Shown piece after piece: positions 12,395-28,109 of a stretch of DNA of 46,696 bases (position 1 is the first letter of the stretch; the number at the start of each line of letters is the position of its first letter). The translations under genes were made by a program, and so were the position numbers. The notes beneath the pieces were generated by a model. The model did not search any database. It saw nothing but the letters and a program-made list of their open reading frames with translations, and was not told the origin of the DNA. The DNA lies in contig JAJEDW010000069.1 of assembly GCA_022821265.1 (NCBI GenBank), positions 1-46,696 of the forward strand, read 5' to 3'. The DNA comes from Acidobacteriota bacterium (GTDB taxonomy: Bacteria > Acidobacteriota > Terriglobia > 20CM-2-55-15).

Positions 12395-13294
12395 TCATGC
12401 ACCCGGGATAGGCCCGAGATCGTCCACACTGACGAAGGGTCGACCCGTTTCGGCTGCCCTTCGAGCCTTCATGGCGAACACGGCCGCGAGGTCGAGCCGA
12501 CGTGACAGGACCGCGTGCAAGTCGAGGCCGTCCATGCAGATCAAGCTCTTGCCATGCCCGAACGCGGTGAGCCCTTCAGGAGAGAAACCGCTATAACTCA
12601 ACAAGAGACCGCGGGACCACCTCGCCTTTTCTTCTACCTTCGCGTTGAACGAACGAAGCGTCGCTGCGCCGACCGGGTCATTGGTCCATTTCGCTTCAAG
12701 CAAATATGTGTCGCCTCTCAGCATGAAGCTGCCGTCGATTTGCTCGCCCACAAGGCGGAAGGAGTCGCGCGCGGACAACCCGTATGCATCGAACGTGTCC
12801 TTCAACAATTTTTCGAACGCGTAGCCGCGGGGCTGTGGATCCAACTCGGAAACCTTTAGCAATCGATCGGCCAGAGACGAAGCGGCCGTCGCGTCAATTC
12901 GCGATTCTGCGGAAGCGCGGGACGCTGTTTCTTGTCTCGGCGGCGTGCCGCGTAGTCGTTCGAGGATTTTGAAGAAGGCAACTCGTACCGTATCGTTCAA
13001 CTCCGTATATTCTCGAGTCGCGCTACTGGCCTCCCGGTACTCCCAAAGCGCGTTCAGCGCCCCAAGAGCGGCTTCGCGATTCGCGTGTCGCAAGTAATAG
13101 CGCAAGCGCTTCGCCTTGCTCGCGCCCTGTACCGCCCAACGGGGATCGTCGATATCGACCCCGAGTTCTTCTCGGAAGAATTCCGCGAAGGTCTGGTTCG
13201 TGAAATCCAATACATAGCCAGATTCCATGCCAAATACCCTGTCGAGGACCGGCATGTCCGCGGTGCGGATCGTGGCGGGCGATCTTCGGCTCAT
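12395..13294 (-). CDS. Mrr-like restriction endonuclease-fold protein
   Basis: This 299-residue protein is the last gene of a three-gene operon. Residues about 14-115 form a helical domain (VLDFTNQTFAEFFREELGVD, SKAKRLRYYLRH) that I associate from memory with N-terminal modules of other defence genes. Residues about 150-290 look like a PD-(D/E)XK nuclease of the Mrr type: E161 (GYAFEKLL), D187 (EQIDGSF), E200 and K202 (LLEAKW), then the amphipathic SRGLLLSYSGFSPEGL. It would be expected to cut DNA. The start at 13294 overlaps the upstream stop as ATGA, so translation is coupled. Base composition is less GC-rich than the flanking genes. Confidence 0.72.
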   Translation of the reverse strand: MSRRSPATIRTADMPVLDRVFGMESGYVLDFTNQTFAEFFREELGVDIDDPRWAVQGASKAKRLRYYLRHANREAALGALNALWEYREASSATREYTELNDTVRVAFFKILERLRGTPPRQETASRASAESRIDATAASSLADRLLKVSELDPQPRGYAFEKLLKDTFDAYGLSARDSFRLVGEQIDGSFMLRGDTYLLEAKWTNDPVGAATLRSFNAKVEEKARWSRGLLLSYSGFSPEGLTAFGHGKSLICMDGLDLHAVLSRRLDLAAVFAMKARRAAETGRPFVSVDDLGPIPGA

Positions 13295-14154
13295 GTCTGC
13301 CTTAATCCGAGTCCTTTGAGCCAAGCGTCAACCTGTCCGAAGGCGTCCTGTTGCCATTGATCCGCAGTGCGACCGCCCAGCACGTGGGAACCTTCCACGA
13401 ATCCTCTGACGCTCGTTGGTCCGAAGTCTTCGACGTCGCGGAATTTCTCGGAGATCAGGCGGTAACCTCGCCGGGCCGATCGAACATCGAGGAGTGGCCG
13501 GGTCGCCTCGACAAGCGCGTCGATGCCGTCCGGGAAATTTCGGATGGTGAAATAGATGTCGTAGGCGTCCTTTTGTTTCAGACGATTGGCAATGGCGTAA
13601 CCCTTCATGGACAGGAAAGCCGGAATCGATGCGACGGCGATACGAACGAAATTCCGGACACCATCGGGCATGTCGCCATCGATGGGAACTATTCGACGGA
13701 ACCTGAGAGCGAGGTCGGCGCCGTCGGCGCGCTGGACGGCGAAACCCCGGATGAGCGGAGGTCGGTTTCTGCTAACCTCCGCGTCGCGCGGCATCAGGAA
13801 GTCCACAACGACGTCGATGTCGGGCCCGCCGTCTCTGGCCGGCACGGTGCGTACGAGTTGGAAGCGCTGCAGATCGTCCCGTGGATGATAGCCGTGTTTC
13901 TGGAGGGCTTCGACAAGCCGAACATATTCGCCGTCGTCCAGCGCGGATGGGTCGAGACCGAGGTCCACGTCGCCCGTGCCGATATGGGGCGTTTCGGCTT
14001 CCGTCAGCGAAAGCCAGGGAACGGCGCCGCCGACAATCACGAACTTGCCTTCGAAGCTTCCGAGGATCTGGCCGATCTCGATCAGCACGGACTTGACCGC
14101 CCGCGTCGTCCGGTCATCGTAATCGCCTGCCGATCGACGTTCTCTTACAGCCAT
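13291..14154 (-). CDS. AbiEii-like nucleotidyltransferase (candidate toxin)
   Basis: This 287-residue protein has a DNA polymerase beta-type nucleotidyltransferase core. The glycine pair is in FVIVGGAVPWL (about residues 38-48). The DxD pair is D62 and D64 (GTGDVDLGLD), and a third acidic residue lies in DIDVVVDFL (D114 or D118). A later RLKQKDAYDIYFTIRNF matches the conserved KxKDxxDI region of AbiEii/AbiGii toxins, which modify tRNA or other targets with nucleotides. The ATG at 14154 overlaps the AbiEi-like gene by 10 bp, and the stop overlaps the nuclease gene by 4 bp. The AbiEii assignment is by fold and neighbour, and activity is untested. Confidence 0.78.
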   Translation of the reverse strand: MAVRERRSAGDYDDRTTRAVKSVLIEIGQILGSFEGKFVIVGGAVPWLSLTEAETPHIGTGDVDLGLDPSALDDGEYVRLVEALQKHGYHPRDDLQRFQLVRTVPARDGGPDIDVVVDFLMPRDAEVSRNRPPLIRGFAVQRADGADLALRFRRIVPIDGDMPDGVRNFVRIAVASIPAFLSMKGYAIANRLKQKDAYDIYFTIRNFPDGIDALVEATRPLLDVRSARRGYRLISEKFRDVEDFGPTSVRGFVEGSHVLGGRTADQWQQDAFGQVDAWLKGLGLRQT

Positions 14155-15251
14155 GGGAAGCACTTTGAGGCCAAATGGTCGGCAGCCTCGCGGTCGCGAT
14201 CTCTGCCGTTCCAGAGTTCGAGATATGTGACGATCGGGCTGGCGCAGAAGACGCCCGGCGCCGGCTCGACCGCGTCCTCGAACAGGCTCTCGTCGGTCGG
14301 GATGAGCAAGTTGACATTCGCTCCCCGTTCGGCGTGAGTCAGCTTCAACTCCTTGGTCAGCATTCGAGCACCGGGTTCGTCGACGTAGAAGCCATATGTC
14401 CCCCCCCGTGCGAACGGCGCAAGCCACTGAGCGGCAGAGTTCGACGCAAAAATCGCGCGTGGGCGCTGTGGTTCCGGATTCAGCTTCCCCAACAACCGTG
14501 CGTTGAATGGGTCGCCGTGGAAGGGCGTATATCGGCTCATGCGATGACCGGCCGGCTGGCGGTAGTTCTCACGCCAAGTCCGCAAGAGCGCGTCCGGCCG
14601 AACCAGGACGATTCCGTCGTCCCGTTTTTCTATCCATTCACGCTCGAGGAGGGCTTTGCGAACGTTGCTCACATGGCCAAGGCTCGCAGAGGCCGCCTCC
14701 GCCAGGTCGATGACACGCCATGCCCGATCCCGGTTGCGAAGGAGAACCCGCAAGATCGCGGCGGCCTTCGGGGTGAAGACCGACCGCAGAGCGCGGCTTT
14801 CGGACTTTGGCCGGCGTGCGACGGCTCGATCGATATAGACATTGTCGAATGCCACGTGAGCGTTCCCGACCAGATCGAGGTAGGCGACGTCATGATCCAT
14901 GCAGATGGACCGAGACTCGAGAGACAGGTAGGGACTCACGAGCATCGGGATCGAACGTGGACCGGAGTCCCCGTGACCGGTCTGACGAGCATGCGCCAGG
15001 TAGCCCAGGAGTTGATACACGGCAGACCGGACGGAACGGGGGGCTCCGTTCGACTTGACTTCGATGATCAGCGCGTATGTATCGTCGCCGTGCTCGAACT
15101 CGATACGACCGTCTATCGGATAATCGTGTCCGCTCTCCTGGCCAAAGCGAACGGAACTGACCTCAAGGCGTGGCACATGGTGGAGCAGTTGGCGGGCCGC
15201 TTTCACGGCCGTGGCGTCCAGGTCTTTCACTGAATTATAAATTTTCATCAC
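14145..15251 (-). CDS. AbiEi-like regulator with N-terminal PD-(D/E)XK-like domain
   Basis: This 368-residue protein leads the three-gene operon. From the second Met (15248), residues 40-85 show a nuclease-fold signature: D46 (YPIDGRIEF), E63 and K65 (IIEVKS), Q79 (AVYQLLGYL). Residues about 140-210 form a winged helix (FTPKAAAILRVLLRNRDRAW, VIDLAEAASASLGHVSNVRK). The C-terminal part resembles AbiEi-type antitoxin domains (ending SPIVTYLELWNGRDRDREAA). In AbiE systems the partner represses the operon and counteracts the nucleotidyltransferase. A good promoter (15258-15286) predicts transcription from the GTG at 15251, giving a leaderless message. Whether the N-terminal domain still cleaves DNA is unknown. 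Confidence 0.75.
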   Translation of the reverse strand: MMKIYNSVKDLDATAVKAARQLLHHVPRLEVSSVRFGQESGHDYPIDGRIEFEHGDDTYALIIEVKSNGAPRSVRSAVYQLLGYLAHARQTGHGDSGPRSIPMLVSPYLSLESRSICMDHDVAYLDLVGNAHVAFDNVYIDRAVARRPKSESRALRSVFTPKAAAILRVLLRNRDRAWRVIDLAEAASASLGHVSNVRKALLEREWIEKRDDGIVLVRPDALLRTWRENYRQPAGHRMSRYTPFHGDPFNARLLGKLNPEPQRPRAIFASNSAAQWLAPFARGGTYGFYVDEPGARMLTKELKLTHAERGANVNLLIPTDESLFEDAVEPAPGVFCASPIVTYLELWNGRDRDREAADHLASKCFPWL

Positions 15252-15257
15252 ATTCTG

Positions 15258-15286
15258 AAATTAGACAAGATGATGAATACTTGCAA
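15258..15286 (-). promoter_or_regulatory. Promoter of the three-gene island operon
   Basis: On the minus strand, TTGCAA (15281-15286), a 17-bp spacer and TAATTT (15258-15263) form a strong sigma-70-type promoter. The predicted start, 7 bases after the -10, falls on the GTG at 15251, so the message should be leaderless. The spacer contains ATGAATAC (15273-15280), which matches 7 of 8 bases of the half-site in the toxin-antitoxin operator. Confidence 0.6.
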
Positions 15287-15469: not shown

Positions 15470-15697
15470 ATGGCGACATCGATTCGGCTGGCGCACGAAA
15501 CCGAACGACGGCTCGACTTTCTCGCATCCCGGACCGGGCGCACGAAGGCGTTCTACCTACGGGAAATAATCGAGCGCGGACTGGAGGAGATCGAAGACTA
15601 CTATCTTGCTGCTGACGTGCTGGAACGCCTGCGCCAGGGCAAAGAGCAAGTGTACTCGGCCAGCGACGTGAGGAATGCCCTCAAGCTGGACGATTGA
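15470..15697 (+). CDS. RelB/ribbon-helix-helix antitoxin
   Basis: This 75-residue protein has an N-terminal ribbon-helix-helix DNA-binding segment, SIRLAHETERRLDFLASRTG, followed by the helix FYLREIIERGLEEIEDYYLA and a short acidic tail. The pattern is typical of RelB-type antitoxins with the RelE partner encoded next. The start has GGAGG 9 bases upstream (15456-15460). It should neutralise the downstream toxin and repress its own promoter through the palindrome at 15429-15446. The stop lies inside the toxin gene, a 23-bp overlap that couples translation. Confidence 0.85.
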   Translation: MATSIRLAHETERRLDFLASRTGRTKAFYLREIIERGLEEIEDYYLAADVLERLRQGKEQVYSASDVRNALKLDD

Positions 15698-15947
15698 GTA
15701 CGCTGCATCCGCCCGGAGCCAGCTTCGCAAACTCGACCGGCAAATGGCTCGACGCATCATCGACTTCATGAACGAGCGGATCGCGGGACTGGACAACCCA
15801 CCGAGCCTGGGAAAGGCGCTGAAAGGGCCGTTGGGCGAGTTGTGGCGTTACCGTGTCGGGGATTGCCGCGTGATCTGCGACATTCGAGATGACCGATTAT
15901 GTGTTCTCGTTGTGAGGGTCGGCAGCCGCGACAAGGTGTACCGTTAA
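15675..15947 (+). CDS. RelE/ParE-family toxin
   Basis: This 90-residue toxin has the RelE-fold pattern: WTIEYAASARSQLRKLDRQ at the N terminus, LKGPLGELWRYRVGDCRVIC in the middle, and the C-terminal VLVVRVGSRDKVYR with the conserved basic and tyrosine residues of the mRNA-cleaving subgroup. If active it would cut mRNA at the ribosome and slow growth when the antitoxin is lost. It overlaps the antitoxin gene by 23 bp. The cysteine in VGDCRV is at a site where many members have tyrosine. Whether it is RelE-like or ParE-like in target cannot be settled from sequence alone. Confidence 0.87.
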   Translation: MPSSWTIEYAASARSQLRKLDRQMARRIIDFMNERIAGLDNPPSLGKALKGPLGELWRYRVGDCRVICDIRDDRLCVLVVRVGSRDKVYR

Positions 15948-22660: not shown

Positions 22661-23197
22661 ATGAGCAAAGTGAATCCTCCCCTCCGCGCGGCGAAACCCG
22701 GCGAGCCCGCCGATGCGGGACGCCGGTCGTTCTTCTCGTGGATGAGCCTGGCCTGGGTCTCCTTCACCGCCTCGATGTTGGCGGCCGGCACGGCCACGGC
22801 CCGCTTCATGTTTCCGAACGTGCTGTTCGAGCCGCCGTTGACGTTCCGTGCCGGCCGGCCCGAGGAATTGCAGGTGGGCATCGTGGACGAGCGGTTCAAG
22901 GACTCCAACCAGGTGTGGCTCGTGCGCGAGGGCGGCGGGATCTACGCGTTGTCGACCACGTGCACGCACCTGGGGTGCACGCCGAACTGGCTGTCGGCCG
23001 AGCAGAAGTTCAAGTGCCCGTGCCACGGAAGCGGCTTCTACATCACCGGCATCAACTTCGAGGGGCCCGCGCCGCGTCCACTGGAACGCTTCGCGATCAG
23101 CCTGGCCGACGACGGGCAACTCGTGATCGACAAGGGCCGCAAGTTCCAGCAGGAAAAGGGTCAGTGGGAGCTTCCGGGAGCGTATCTGGAATTCTAG
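22661..23197 (+). CDS. Rieske [2Fe-2S] protein of a cytochrome bc complex
   Basis: This 178-residue subunit carries electrons from quinol to a c-type cytochrome on the outer side of the inner membrane. An N-terminal helix with the twin-arginine-like GRRSFFSW precedes a membrane anchor (about 27-50). Cluster ligands are C101 and H103 in CTHLGC and C119 and H122 in CPCHGSGF. C106 and C121 can form the stabilising disulfide. Late residues (APRPLERFAI) are typical. AGGAG lies 11 bases before the ATG (in GAGCGAGGAGTCTGCG). It is followed by two cytochrome b genes. Confidence 0.93.
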   Translation: MSKVNPPLRAAKPGEPADAGRRSFFSWMSLAWVSFTASMLAAGTATARFMFPNVLFEPPLTFRAGRPEELQVGIVDERFKDSNQVWLVREGGGIYALSTTCTHLGCTPNWLSAEQKFKCPCHGSGFYITGINFEGPAPRPLERFAISLADDGQLVIDKGRKFQQEKGQWELPGAYLEF

Positions 23198-23267
23198 CCG
23201 CGGAGTGCGGCCTCACCGGCGGCCGCGCCATCGAGCGTTCCGATTATTCCATCAGGTCTGATTGCAT

Positions 23268-24083
23268 ATGAGCCAACTCAAGGAGCTGTTAACGAGTCTC
23301 TCGCCGACGAAGCTGGGAGAGGCAATCCAGAAGAGCCAGATCTATCGCTCGGTGTTCCGGGTGGGCGTGCCGGTCTCCGACCGAAAACGGATGCTGGTCA
23401 TGCTGGGCAACGTCTTCCTGCACCTGCACCCGGTCAAGGTGCGGAAGTCGGGAATCCGGCTGCGCTTCACCTGGTGCATGGGCGGGATCACGTTCTTCCT
23501 GTTCCTGGTGCTGACCTTCACCGGCCTGCTCCTGATGTTCTACTACCGGCCGACCATCGAGTACGCCTACGTCGACATCATCGACCTGCGCGAGCAGGTG
23601 CCGCTCGGCATCATGCGGGAAATCCATCGCTGGGGCGCCCACGCGATGGTGATCAGCGTCTGGCTCCACATGGTCCGCGTGTTCATGACCGGTTCCTACA
23701 AGCCGCCGCGGGAATTCAACTGGGGCGTCGGCGTGATCCTGCTCGTCCTGACGTTGCTGTTGAGCTTCACCGGTTACCTGCTTCCGTGGGACCAGTTGGC
23801 GATGTGGGCCATCACCGTGGGCTCGAACATGGCGCGCGCCACGCCGTTCGCCGGGTACGAAGGCCCGGGCGCCAACCTGCTGACCCTGGGCGAGAACATA
23901 CCGCTGATCAGCAGCACCAGCGACGCGCGGTTCGCGCTTCTGGGCGGGACGCGGGTCGGCGAAATGGCGTTGCTGCGCTTCTATGTCCTTCACTGCGTCG
24001 GGCTCCCGCTGGTCGCCGGTTTCCTGATGGCGGTGCACTTCTGGCGCATACGCCGGGACGGCGGCATCTCCGGGCCGCTCTAG
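23268..24083 (+). CDS. Cytochrome b N-terminal subunit, cytochrome b6-like
   Basis: This 271-residue membrane protein holds the two b hemes of the quinol-oxidising complex. Ligands are H120 and H134 ([16 protein letters not shown]) and H242 and H257 ([17 protein letters not shown]). The second pair is 15 apart, as in cytochrome b6, rather than 14 as in mitochondrial-type cytochrome b. The C terminus ISGPL also matches b6. The protein ends after four helices, and the rest of cytochrome b is encoded by the next gene. The ATG at 23268 is preferred to TTG 23262. The covalent extra heme cysteine of true b6 was not established. Confidence 0.92.
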
Positions 24084-24098
24084 AGAACGGGCAAGCGA

Positions 24099-25178
24099 AT
24101 GGAAACCATCAAGGACATCATCAACACCCTGACGGCGCCCGAGATCCTGATCACGCTGGCGACGATCCTGCTGTTCGTCTCGGCCAAGTACCGGCACGTC
24201 TTCTACACGAACACGGTGGCGCTGGTCCTGTTTCCGGCGATGTTCGTGTTCATGGCGATCAGCATGTTCGACGAGGACTTCTACCTGATCGTCACCAAGC
24301 CGGACAACGTGCCGATCGTCGGCATGTTGTTCCTGATCCCGTTCTTCACGTGGTTCTCGATGCGCGAGGCGGTCCGCAACGACCGGCGCACGGACTCGGG
24401 GACGCCGCTGATCGAGAAGGAAGAAACAGCCGACAAGGTTCTGACCTGGCCCGACCTGGTCTACACCGAGTTGATCGCGATCGTGCTGTTGACGGTCCTG
24501 CTCGTCGGCTGGTCCATCCTGATCCCGGCGCCGCTGGAAGAGTCGGCCAACCCGGCCGCCACGCCCAACCCGTCGAAGGCGCCGTGGTACTTCCTCGGCC
24601 TGCAGGAAATGCTGGTCTACTTCGACCCGTGGCTGGCGGGCGTCGTGTTCCCGGGCCTGATCATCGTCGGGCTGATGGCGATCCCCTACATCGACACCAA
24701 CCCGAAGGGGAACGGCTACTACACGTTCAAGGAACGCAGTTGGGAGATCATGACGTTCCTGTTCGGTTTCCTGATCCTGTGGGTGCTGCTGGTCATCCTG
24801 GGCACGTTCCTGCGGGGGCCCAACTGGAACTTCTTCGGGCCGTACGAGTACTGGGACACGCACAAGCTGGAAGCGCTGGTCAACGTGGACCTGTCCGACT
24901 ATTTCTGGGTGCGGCTGCTCGGCATGGGCCGGCCCGACAACATCCTGATCCGCGAGAGCGTCGGATTCCTGGTCGTGCTCGGCTACTTCCTGATTCCCCC
25001 GATGGTGCTCGCCCGGACGATCTTCAAGAGGTTCTACGAGAACCTCGGACCGGCCCGCTATCACATCATGGTCTTCCTGCTGTTGTGCATGGCGTCGCTG
25101 CCGATCAAGATGGTACTGCGCTGGCTGTTCAACCTGAAGTACATCATCGGGATACCGGAGTTTTTCTTCAACATCTAG
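24099..25178 (+). CDS. Cytochrome b C-terminal subunit (subunit IV-like)
   Basis: This 359-residue protein carries the remaining helices of cytochrome b, including the quinol-oxidation site. It has about nine predicted membrane helices, more than the three of plant subunit IV. It begins with two extra helices (EILITLATILLFVSAKY and VALVLFPAMFVFMAISMF). The Qo-site segment reads SKAPWYFLGLQEML (about 159-172), where b6f and bc1 complexes have PEWY or PDWY; the acidic residue is replaced by alanine. SRxxLGxxxPLIxxEE-like loops are not obvious. It is 15 bp downstream of the b6-like gene and 30 bp before the octaheme cytochrome gene. Confidence 0.88.
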   Translation: METIKDIINTLTAPEILITLATILLFVSAKYRHVFYTNTVALVLFPAMFVFMAISMFDEDFYLIVTKPDNVPIVGMLFLIPFFTWFSMREAVRNDRRTDSGTPLIEKEETADKVLTWPDLVYTELIAIVLLTVLLVGWSILIPAPLEESANPAATPNPSKAPWYFLGLQEMLVYFDPWLAGVVFPGLIIVGLMAIPYIDTNPKGNGYYTFKERSWEIMTFLFGFLILWVLLVILGTFLRGPNWNFFGPYEYWDTHKLEALVNVDLSDYFWVRLLGMGRPDNILIRESVGFLVVLGYFLIPPMVLARTIFKRFYENLGPARYHIMVFLLLCMASLPIKMVLRWLFNLKYIIGIPEFFFNI

Positions 25179-25208
25179 CGATGACGCCTATTCGTATCGG
25201 AGAGAACC

Positions 25209-28109
25209 TTGAGTAGCGAAACACCGAACGGCGGAGTGCCGAAACCCGCCATTCCGCCTCCCGCGAAGAAGGATCCCGCACTCAATATCAGTCAGCGCGG
25301 CGATCGGCTGTACGATGACAACGGTCTCCACAAGTGGTTCGCCATCTCGAGCCTGCTGCTGTTCGTCTTCACGGTCTGGATGATCGTCGACGATTACAAC
25401 CGGGACTGGCGGCGCTACCAGCGGGCGTTCACGCGGTTGAGCGTCCAGCAGACAGAGCTGGACATCGCGGCGGCCGAAGGCGCGATCGACCGCACGGCCG
25501 GTGAAGCCATCCTGGGGGAGCTTGCCGCCGCTCAAGGCGATATCGATGGGAATGCCGCTACCATTGCGGAGATCGAGGGGCGTCTCAACGCGCTCAACGA
25601 CGAGTTCTACTCCACCAACCAAGCCTACCTGTTCGCCCGGGCGGAATACGACGTCGAACGCTACGACTACGAGGAAACACTGGCCAACGACCCGGGCAAC
25701 GCCGAGCCGCTCCGCGTCGCTGCCGAGAACCGACTCGCCGAGATCAACGAGAACCTGGAAGCCGTCGAAAGGCTCCAGATCCAGATCGACGACACCACGG
25801 CCGAATTGGAGGTCTACATCGGCGAGCGTGAGCGTCTCGAGGCGGACTTCCTCGCCCTGAGAGCCGAGTTCGACCGGCTTGGCGGCGTCCGCAGCACGCT
25901 CGACCCGGGCCTGATCCGGACGTCCATCCGCAACGCCCCGATTCTGGACTTCATGAACCCGTCCGAGACGGTCAACCAGATCCAGCTCCAGAACCTGCAC
26001 TACGACGCCCCGTTCCTCCAGGTGCCCCGCGTCGACCGTTGCACGACGTGCCACCTCGGGATCAACCAGGAGGCGTTGGGCGAATGGCCCCAGCCGTTCA
26101 CCGCGCACCCGCGCCTGGACGTCTTCGTCGGCGCCGACTCCCCGCACCCGATGGACGGCTTCGGCTGCACGACCTGCCACGCGGGACTGGACCGGGCCGT
26201 CGAGTTTTCGCGCGCCGGGCACGTGCCCGAAAACGAGGAGCAGCAGGCCGATTGGGAGAACCGGTTCGACTGGTACCTGGACCACTTCCTCGAAACACCC
26301 ATGCTGCCGATGGACCGGATCGAGGCCAGTTGCCTGAAGTGCCACACCGGCGCGGGCGACGTTCCCGAGGCGCCCGCGCTGAACATGGGACGCGACCTGA
26401 TCCGGACCTACGGCTGCTTCGGTTGCCACAACATGCCGGGCTACGAGGACGTGCGCCGGGTGGGGCCCGACCTGACGACCATCGGGAGCAAGCTGGACGA
26501 AGAATGGGTGAAGAAGTGGCTGGCCGACCCGCGAGCGTTCAAGTCGGAAGCGCGGATGCCCAAGTTCTGGTTCAACTCCAACAACGGCGGCGCGGAGTTC
26601 GAGGCGCGCAACAACGCGGAGATCACGGCCATAACCGAGTTCCTGTTCTCGCGCTCGCAGGACAACCCGTTGGCCGCGGCCGCCCCTGCCGGCGGAGACG
26701 CCGCGCGGGGCCAGGCGCTCGTGGAATCGGTGGGCTGCCTGGGATGCCACGCCGTCGGACCTATACCCGAGGACCCGGCCCGGACGCAGCACCGGCGGCG
26801 ATTCGGCTACAACCTGGCGAGCCAGGGCAGCAAGACCTCCGAGGACTGGCTGTACAACTGGGTCCGCGACCCGCGCGCCGTCTGGCACGACACCAACATG
26901 CCGACCCTGCGGCTGACCGACGCCGAAGCCGCCGACGTGGCCGCGTACCTGGTGTCGCTGACCAACCCGGAATGGGAAACGGAAGCATTCCCCGAACTGG
27001 ATGAAGCCGCACTCGACGAAGTCACGCTCGAGTTTCTGAGAACCGGTTCGACCGGAATCCAGGCTCAGGAAGCGCTGGCCGCGATGTCGCTCGAAGAGAA
27101 GATCATGACGACGGGCGAGGGGCTGATCGCCCGTTATGGATGCTTCGGCTGCCACGTCATCGAGGGTTTCGAGACCGCGCAGCCCATCGGCACCGAACTG
27201 ACGCAGCCCGGAAGCAAGCTGCTCAACCAGTTCGATTTCGGGTTTCTGGATATCGAGCACACGCGGACCGAGTGGTACGCGGCCAAGATGGCCGATCCGC
27301 GGATCTTCGACGTGGACCGCGTCAAGCGTCCCGAGGAACTGCTGCGGATGCCGGATTTCGGCTTCGACGAGACGGAGGTCGGCGCCATCGTCATGATCCT
27401 GACCGGTCTGGTCAAGGACCAGGTCACCCCGGACATGCGCAACGTCCTGACCGCCGACATCGAGGCTGGCCGGGGACTCGTCGCACAGCGGAACTGCCGC
27501 GGCTGTCATGAAATCGAGGGCGCCGGCGGCGACATCCGGTCGACGATCGACGATGAAGGCCTGTGGCCGCCGCTGTTGAATACGCAGGGCGCCAAGACGC
27601 AGCCCCTGTGGCTGCACTCGTTCCTGCAGGAGCCCGGGGAGGAGACCCTGCGCCCGTGGCTGTCGGCGCGCATGCCGACGTTCTACCTGGACCAGGCGGA
27701 GGCGACCGTGCTCGGCAAGTATTTCTCGGCAATCGACGACGCGCCCTATCCGTTCATCGACACGGCGATCGCGACGACCGACGAGAGCCTGACGGCGGGG
27801 CGCGAGCTCTTCGAGCTGGCGCAGTGCAACCTGTGCCATCCGGCGGGAGACCAGATACCGGACCGCGACGCCGCGGACCTGGCGCCGGATCTGGCCCTGG
27901 CGGCGGAACGACTTCGTCCGGAATGGGTCGAGGACTGGATACTGGATCCGCAGGCCATTGCCCCGGGGACCCGGATGCCGGCGTTCTACATCGACGGGGT
28001 GACGCAACTGCCCGACATACTGGACGACGACACGCCGCGGCAGCTCGAGGCCTTTCGCGACCACCTGTTCCTGACGATCGGGAACGGGCAGCGCGTCGCG
28101 GACAACTGA
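25209..28109 (+). CDS. Membrane-anchored octaheme cytochrome c
   Basis: This 966-residue protein has one membrane helix (about 43-61, FAISSLLLFVFTVWMIVDDYN), a long charged coiled-coil region (about 70-240), and eight CXXCH heme sites at about residues 278, 320, 375, 403, 510, 645, 763 and 873. The fourth to eighth sites lie in repeated mono-heme cytochrome c modules of about 110-135 residues, several ending in RMPxF/MPxL methionine-ligand motifs. It occupies the place of cytochrome c1 in the operon and probably takes electrons from the Rieske protein in the periplasm. The TTG start at 25209 has GGAGAG 5 bases upstream. Confidence 0.92.
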   Translation: MSSETPNGGVPKPAIPPPAKKDPALNISQRGDRLYDDNGLHKWFAISSLLLFVFTVWMIVDDYNRDWRRYQRAFTRLSVQQTELDIAAAEGAIDRTAGEAILGELAAAQGDIDGNAATIAEIEGRLNALNDEFYSTNQAYLFARAEYDVERYDYEETLANDPGNAEPLRVAAENRLAEINENLEAVERLQIQIDDTTAELEVYIGERERLEADFLALRAEFDRLGGVRSTLDPGLIRTSIRNAPILDFMNPSETVNQIQLQNLHYDAPFLQVPRVDRCTTCHLGINQEALGEWPQPFTAHPRLDVFVGADSPHPMDGFGCTTCHAGLDRAVEFSRAGHVPENEEQQADWENRFDWYLDHFLETPMLPMDRIEASCLKCHTGAGDVPEAPALNMGRDLIRTYGCFGCHNMPGYEDVRRVGPDLTTIGSKLDEEWVKKWLADPRAFKSEARMPKFWFNSNNGGAEFEARNNAEITAITEFLFSRSQDNPLAAAAPAGGDAARGQALVESVGCLGCHAVGPIPEDPARTQHRRRFGYNLASQGSKTSEDWLYNWVRDPRAVWHDTNMPTLRLTDAEAADVAAYLVSLTNPEWETEAFPELDEAALDEVTLEFLRTGSTGIQAQEALAAMSLEEKIMTTGEGLIARYGCFGCHVIEGFETAQPIGTELTQPGSKLLNQFDFGFLDIEHTRTEWYAAKMADPRIFDVDRVKRPEELLRMPDFGFDETEVGAIVMILTGLVKDQVTPDMRNVLTADIEAGRGLVAQRNCRGCHEIEGAGGDIRSTIDDEGLWPPLLNTQGAKTQPLWLHSFLQEPGEETLRPWLSARMPTFYLDQAEATVLGKYFSAIDDAPYPFIDTAIATTDESLTAGRELFELAQCNLCHPAGDQIPDRDAADLAPDLALAAERLRPEWVEDWILDPQAIAPGTRMPAFYIDGVTQLPDILDDDTPRQLEAFRDHLFLTIGNGQRVADN

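Follow-up and report, generated by a model that had tools for sequence, protein, structure and literature searches.

A predicted AbiE-type toxin-antitoxin operon from an acidobacterium with an optional third gene for an Mrr-like nuclease

Background

The closest described relatives of the locus analyzed here are the AbiE systems, type IV toxin-antitoxin systems consisting of two genes in which, according to Dy et al. 2014 (PMC3985639), AbiEi autorepresses AbiE through inverted repeats. The MenAT systems of Mycobacterium tuberculosis are similar in encoding DUF1814 nucleotidyltransferase toxins and, in the case of Rv0837c, a COG4861 antitoxin, but comprise two genes as described in PMC11375011 and PMC7319586; the MenT toxins modify tRNA (PMC11375011). 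With the COG4861-COG4849 branch of AbiE, our locus shares a regulator gene in the first position and an overlapping nucleotidyltransferase gene in the second, an order that is kept in relatives, as well as inverted repeats at the promoter, the AbiEi_2 family and, judging by motifs and named relatives, the AbiEii family. It differs in the presence of a third, nuclease gene and so is not bicistronic. Given that AbiE operons contain two genes and that the third one overlaps here, we consider the pair to be AbiE and the locus to be a variant thereof.

Specifically, we propose, with moderate confidence, that this is a COG4861-COG4849-branch AbiE operon with a portable, co-regulated but separately working Mrr-like nuclease as the third gene, such that product A represses, B is toxic and C cuts. 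This reading draws on the layout of the locus, the protein families, the conservation of catalytic positions in B and in C, the promoter repeats, the co-divergence of the genes and the independent losses of B or C.

Layout of the locus

The window, that is, the entire stretch of 46,696 nucleotides analyzed, contains at positions 12395-15251, on the minus strand, three overlapping genes in the operon order A-B-C. The principal features are the following.

14145..15251, minus strand: gene A, predicted COG4861-type AbiEi antitoxin/repressor, 368 aa; starts GTG then ATG
13291..14154, minus strand: gene B, predicted AbiEii/COG4849-type nucleotidyltransferase toxin, 287 aa
12395..13294, minus strand: gene C, predicted Mrr-like PD-(D/E)XK nuclease, 299 aa
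14145..14154, minus strand: overlap of A and B, 10 bp
13291..13294, minus strand: ATGA overlap of the B stop and the C start, in relatives retained or persisting as a scar
15470..15947, plus strand: RelB/RelE-like type II toxin-antitoxin pair, a divergent neighbour outside the operon (RelB, NF048017, 93.5 bits; RelE, TIGR02385, 24.3 bits, below the cutoff of 27.9)

The three reading frames and the two overlaps of the original prediction were all confirmed in position, as was the less GC-rich composition: the operon has a GC content of 60.5% and the 0.7 kb preceding it one of 57.0%, compared with 67.4% elsewhere in the window, which suggests that the locus was acquired. Another stretch of lower GC content (0.61-0.63) lies at positions 23000-26000 of the window. 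A gene neighbouring the operon encodes the acidobacterial VWFA domain TIGR03436, which makes an acidobacterial genome probable. All three genes of the operon are under purifying selection, with a dN/dS of about 0.15-0.20 for C (window versus relatives) and similar values for A and B; together with the identical three-gene order in other phyla, this indicates that the locus did not arise by chance. None of the three operon genes encodes the cognate methyltransferase that would mark a type II restriction-modification system.

The RelB/RelE-like pair is located just upstream of A on the opposite strand, so that two toxin-antitoxin modules abut; in the nearest relative from the same phylum, a BrnA antitoxin-like gene (L034:4160-4420) takes the place of RelBE just upstream of A.

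The regulator and its promoter

Residues 216-361 of A match PF09952 (AbiEi_2; 21.6 bits against a cutoff of 21), a family that corresponds to COG4861 (PMC7251935), and plasmid relatives that are 38-47% identical to A are named AbiEi antitoxin in RefSeq. Two further regions precede this domain.

14808..15251, minus strand: N-terminal PD-(D/E)XK-fold domain of A, approximately residues 1-148 (D47, E64, K66, Q80), with an AF2 pLDDT of about 70-85, Foldseek matches and a family signature
14577..14798, minus strand: helix-turn-helix region of A, approximately residues 152-225, with weak Pfam HTH matches and the near-invariant SLGHVSNVRKALL.REW

The AlphaFold2 model, which is poor for the C-terminal half of A, predicts a restriction-endonuclease-like order of elements in the N-terminal domain, and the Foldseek matches of this domain are EndoMS, PaqCI, XisH and MspJI. 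The residues originally noted as D46, E63, K65 and Q79 exist and become D47, E64, K66 and Q80 when the first codon is counted. The nuclease-like domain had been considered an addition to the regulator in this particular locus, but this view did not hold: the D...ExK...Q signature is found throughout the relatives of A, including those from two-gene plasmid pairs, and so marks the A family rather than this locus. The domain also sets the A family apart from AbiE as presented in the consulted passages of PMC3985639, where it is not mentioned. Its catalytic residues are altered in L034, L040, L043, L141, L142, L172 and the plasmid locus L022, which makes catalysis by A uncertain and weakens the idea that the operon encodes two active nucleases.

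Upstream of A, the following elements were identified.

15243..15260, minus strand: TTTCA-N8-TGAAA inverted repeat spanning the start of A and probably serving A as operator, with conserved half-sites
15258..15286, minus strand: probable promoter, TTGCAA, 17 nt, TAATTT, a weak consensus match, aligned with TTGACA-like boxes of relatives and missed by the consensus scan

The strong promoter that the operon was originally thought to possess was not borne out, inasmuch as a consensus scan found no sigma-70-like site upstream of A; a TTGACA-like -35 box is nevertheless aligned at a conserved position in the upstream regions of relatives. The repeats are more conspicuous. In 15 loci, the regions upstream of A contain 57 TTTCA/TGAAA half-sites, compared with 9.5 +/- 2.9 in dinucleotide shuffles, and TTTCA occurs at -27 and -9 in nearly all of these loci. 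In the window, the -9 site is kept, the -27 site reads TATTCA, and the inverted repeat TTTCAGAATGTGATGAAA spans the start codons of A. Since the two-gene plasmid relatives carry these repeats too, they belong to the A family, and their conservation at the A promoter fits the autorepression of AbiE through inverted repeats reported in PMC3985639.

The nucleotidyltransferase and the nuclease

The match of B to PF08843 (20.1 bits) falls just under the Pfam cutoff of 22.5, and PADLOC returned weak AbiEii matches and nothing more. Relatives that are 57-69% identical to B are named AbiEii toxin in RefSeq, and AbiEii motifs I, II and IV (GG42-43, D62/D64 and K195-D196-x-x-D199) are conserved. The GG and D62/D64 residues, by which B had originally been described as AbiEii-like, are present and conserved in relatives. 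By analogy with the MenT family, B probably blocks translation.

The main recognizable part of C is the nuclease domain.

12512..12826, minus strand: Mrr_cat nuclease domain of C, residues 157-261, Pfam PF04471 match

This domain is detected in C with 28 bits against a cutoff of 21, and also in 62 of 62 C relatives. The predicted catalytic residues E161, D187, E200 and K202 are all present; the first three are invariant in 93 relatives, and position 202 is K in 88 and R in 5 of these. In the AF2 model (pLDDT 87.8), a helix carries E161, the second strand D187 and the third strand E200/K202, an arrangement expected of the PD-(D/E)XK fold; in structure comparison, the fold of C weakly matches those of MspJI, EndoMS and HindIII. 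In its complete set of catalytic residues and the weak MspJI match, C resembles the Mrr-like restriction nucleases (PF04471), but differs from them in that it is encoded in a toxin-antitoxin operon and that its N-terminal 116 residues match no Pfam family. Proteins of the C family have so far been named only "restriction endonuclease".

Among the NCBIfam models, none names A, B or C; the PADLOC matches of A and C were at chance level; and PDB sequence searches with the single proteins A, B and C gave no matches. Azurin and other profile matches were taken as chance.

Recurrence of the three-gene order

Scanning genomes with a C profile yielded 391 relatives, and the analysis covers the best 80 of them. 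Among these 80, all seven loci in which C is at least 60% identical to that of the window (60-72%) have A-B immediately upstream (L039-L043, L052 and L054). They are labelled Latescibacterota, Binatia, Gamma- and Alphaproteobacteria, Gemmatimonadetes and unclassified; the locus labelled Gammaproteobacteria groups with a Gemmatimonadetes genome, and two of the genome searches represent one phylum and are not independent. The C genes of the A-B-C loci form one clade (SH-aLRT 97), indicative of one gain, and the three genes diverge in parallel, as seen in the correlation of their evolutionary distances across loci (Mantel test: A-C, r 0.83, p 6e-4; B-C, r 0.71, p 0.006). A second, distant A-B-C arrangement is present on a Rhizobium tropici plasmid (A 23%, B 25% and C 43% identity); in this locus (L032:4969-8521), the genes behind A-B-C encode an OLD-like ATPase and a helicase, which by annotation form a Gabija-like pair.

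Given the gene overlaps, the co-divergence, the single origin of the trio and the distant Rhizobium tropici arrangement, a true three-component system could be envisaged, in which C is an effector whose activity hinges on B or A (C might, for instance, also be restrained by A or be modified by B) and defence is provided by the trio only. We consider such a system unlikely, as a survey of the clade shows. The clade sample consists of 17 loci (the window, L034, L039-L043, L052, L054, L141-L147 and L172), the extra loci coming from genome searches with B. Intact genes were found in 16 of these loci for A, 12 for B and 8 for C, although some of the B or C breaks, single frameshifts in particular, may be assembly errors of metagenome-assembled genomes. 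C is absent or broken in nine of the 17 (L034, L054, L141-L146 and L172), and A-B is retained without C in L141-L145 and L172. Traces of the third gene remain: a short C remnant in L172, a C cut off behind residue 66, with a transposase-like ORF alongside, in L144, and the stop-start junction as a scar in L142, L143 and L145. Conversely, most of B is deleted and C kept in L041 and L147, and in L039 B is frameshifted and C intact. The plasmid A-B pairs examined outside the clade (L022-L026) all lack C; on one of these, from Mesorhizobium, a Schlafen/AlbA_2 gene occupies the third slot behind A-B, with a 4-bp overlap with B (L025:4843-6288).

The trio is therefore not obligate: even in its own clade, C is optional and can be dispensed with. 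That B and C have been lost independently speaks for each functioning without the other, and the C family also has members that stand by themselves or are paired with different genes; an AbiE operon with a separately working nuclease is accordingly likelier than an obligate three-component system. Judged by the refuting condition set originally, namely that the third gene be rare next to the AbiE-like pair in other genomes, the outcome is mixed: among its closest relatives C always adjoins A-B, outside the clade it rarely does. Likewise, the notion of a composite module is supported by the recurrence of an AbiE-like pair and a nuclease in one operon, but A-B itself is an ordinary COG4861-COG4849 pair that mostly lacks C.

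The same losses bear on the improbable alternative that the toxin-antitoxin pair merely stabilises, by addiction, a locus with a costly nuclease gene, without a joint defensive response. AbiE stabilises plasmids (PMC3985639), and relatives of C adjoin toxin genes of several unrelated kinds, as this explanation would have it, but C alone is often lost and A-B stays, so that the pair gives C no particular protection. A CreTA-type guardian, which would require C for antitoxicity, is rejected because A-B occurs without C.

Genomic context of the C family

In the 80 loci, the same-strand gene upstream of C encodes a DUF6088-associated AbiEii in 15 cases, one of them a remnant; A-B occupies this position in 7 loci, a Fic gene in 3, a PIN gene in 3 and the gene of an Xre/HigA-like antitoxin, assigned by sequence inspection and HTH counts, in 2. 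By Pfam counts, toxin genes are found upstream of C in 25/61 cases versus downstream in 1/47 (p 7e-7), and after clustering of C at 85% identity in 17/42 versus 1/30 (p 2e-4) or, without the A-B clade, with p 0.005. The downstream control relies on a basic ORF caller, and common ancestry is corrected for only in part. The C tree requires several separate gains of toxin partners.

The C family is mobile and present on many plasmids, and many relatives lack an adjoining toxin gene, as would be expected if C were a passenger that, in DNA rich in defence genes, happened to end up behind A-B and merely shares its transcript. We regard this as doubtful: C is under purifying selection along with A and B across phyla, and the upstream excess of toxin genes persists once near-copies are removed. 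Nor does the locus appear to be chiefly a phage module, as viral contigs contain 12 C relatives and one A relative and no B relatives.

The hamA gene of Hachiman follows C in 25/80 loci, and an arrangement that recurs, for instance in L028, L175, L090 and L091, is DUF6088 - AbiEii - C - HamA. C may thus belong to Hachiman loci as an accessory gene that has gone unrecognised. Such loci of rhizobial plasmids resemble the window locus in that a toxin-antitoxin pair is directly followed by a C relative, but the AbiE pair is a different one and hamA comes next, whereas no HamA is encoded within 600 bp downstream of C in any of the seven A-B-C loci, which sets them apart from Hachiman as well.

A more far-reaching but less likely reading is that C represents a portable nuclease family that serves as the third component in unrelated toxin-antitoxin operons (AbiE, Fic, PIN); toxin and nuclease would be released jointly, and a single trigger would cause both growth arrest and DNA destruction.

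Proposed mechanism and implications

The reading of the locus as an AbiE operon with a separately working nuclease is favoured by the loss of C with A-B kept, by the retention of C with B broken and by the location of C relatives behind other toxins; we also count in its favour the Schlafen/AlbA gene in the C slot of the Mesorhizobium plasmid. Against it, B scores just under the Pfam cutoff, the C-terminal part of A is poorly modelled, and C could be a passenger. Under this reading, A would repress the operon by binding the TTTCA/TGAAA repeats that cover the promoter and the A start codon, and would counteract B, a putative nucleotidyltransferase toxin that probably blocks translation. Loss or titration of A, as might occur during phage infection, would lead to joint production of B and C from one mRNA; B would halt growth and C would cut DNA independently, a combination that could provide phage defence.

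The A-B pair and the PD-(D/E)XK/Mrr nuclease domain are already known. The bundling of a third gene, the repeated occurrence of this arrangement and the association of the C family with toxins are undescribed in the literature and libraries searched; in the open-access literature, covered largely at the level of titles and abstracts, there was no description of the A-B-C trio or of C with Hachiman. The locus thus provides a concrete case of a toxin-antitoxin operon as a regulated carrier of a nuclease, complete with natural variants that lack B or C. The C family forms a link between AbiE, Fic, PIN and Hachiman loci, and a so far uncharacterised PD-(D/E)XK domain spans a whole branch of AbiEi antitoxins.
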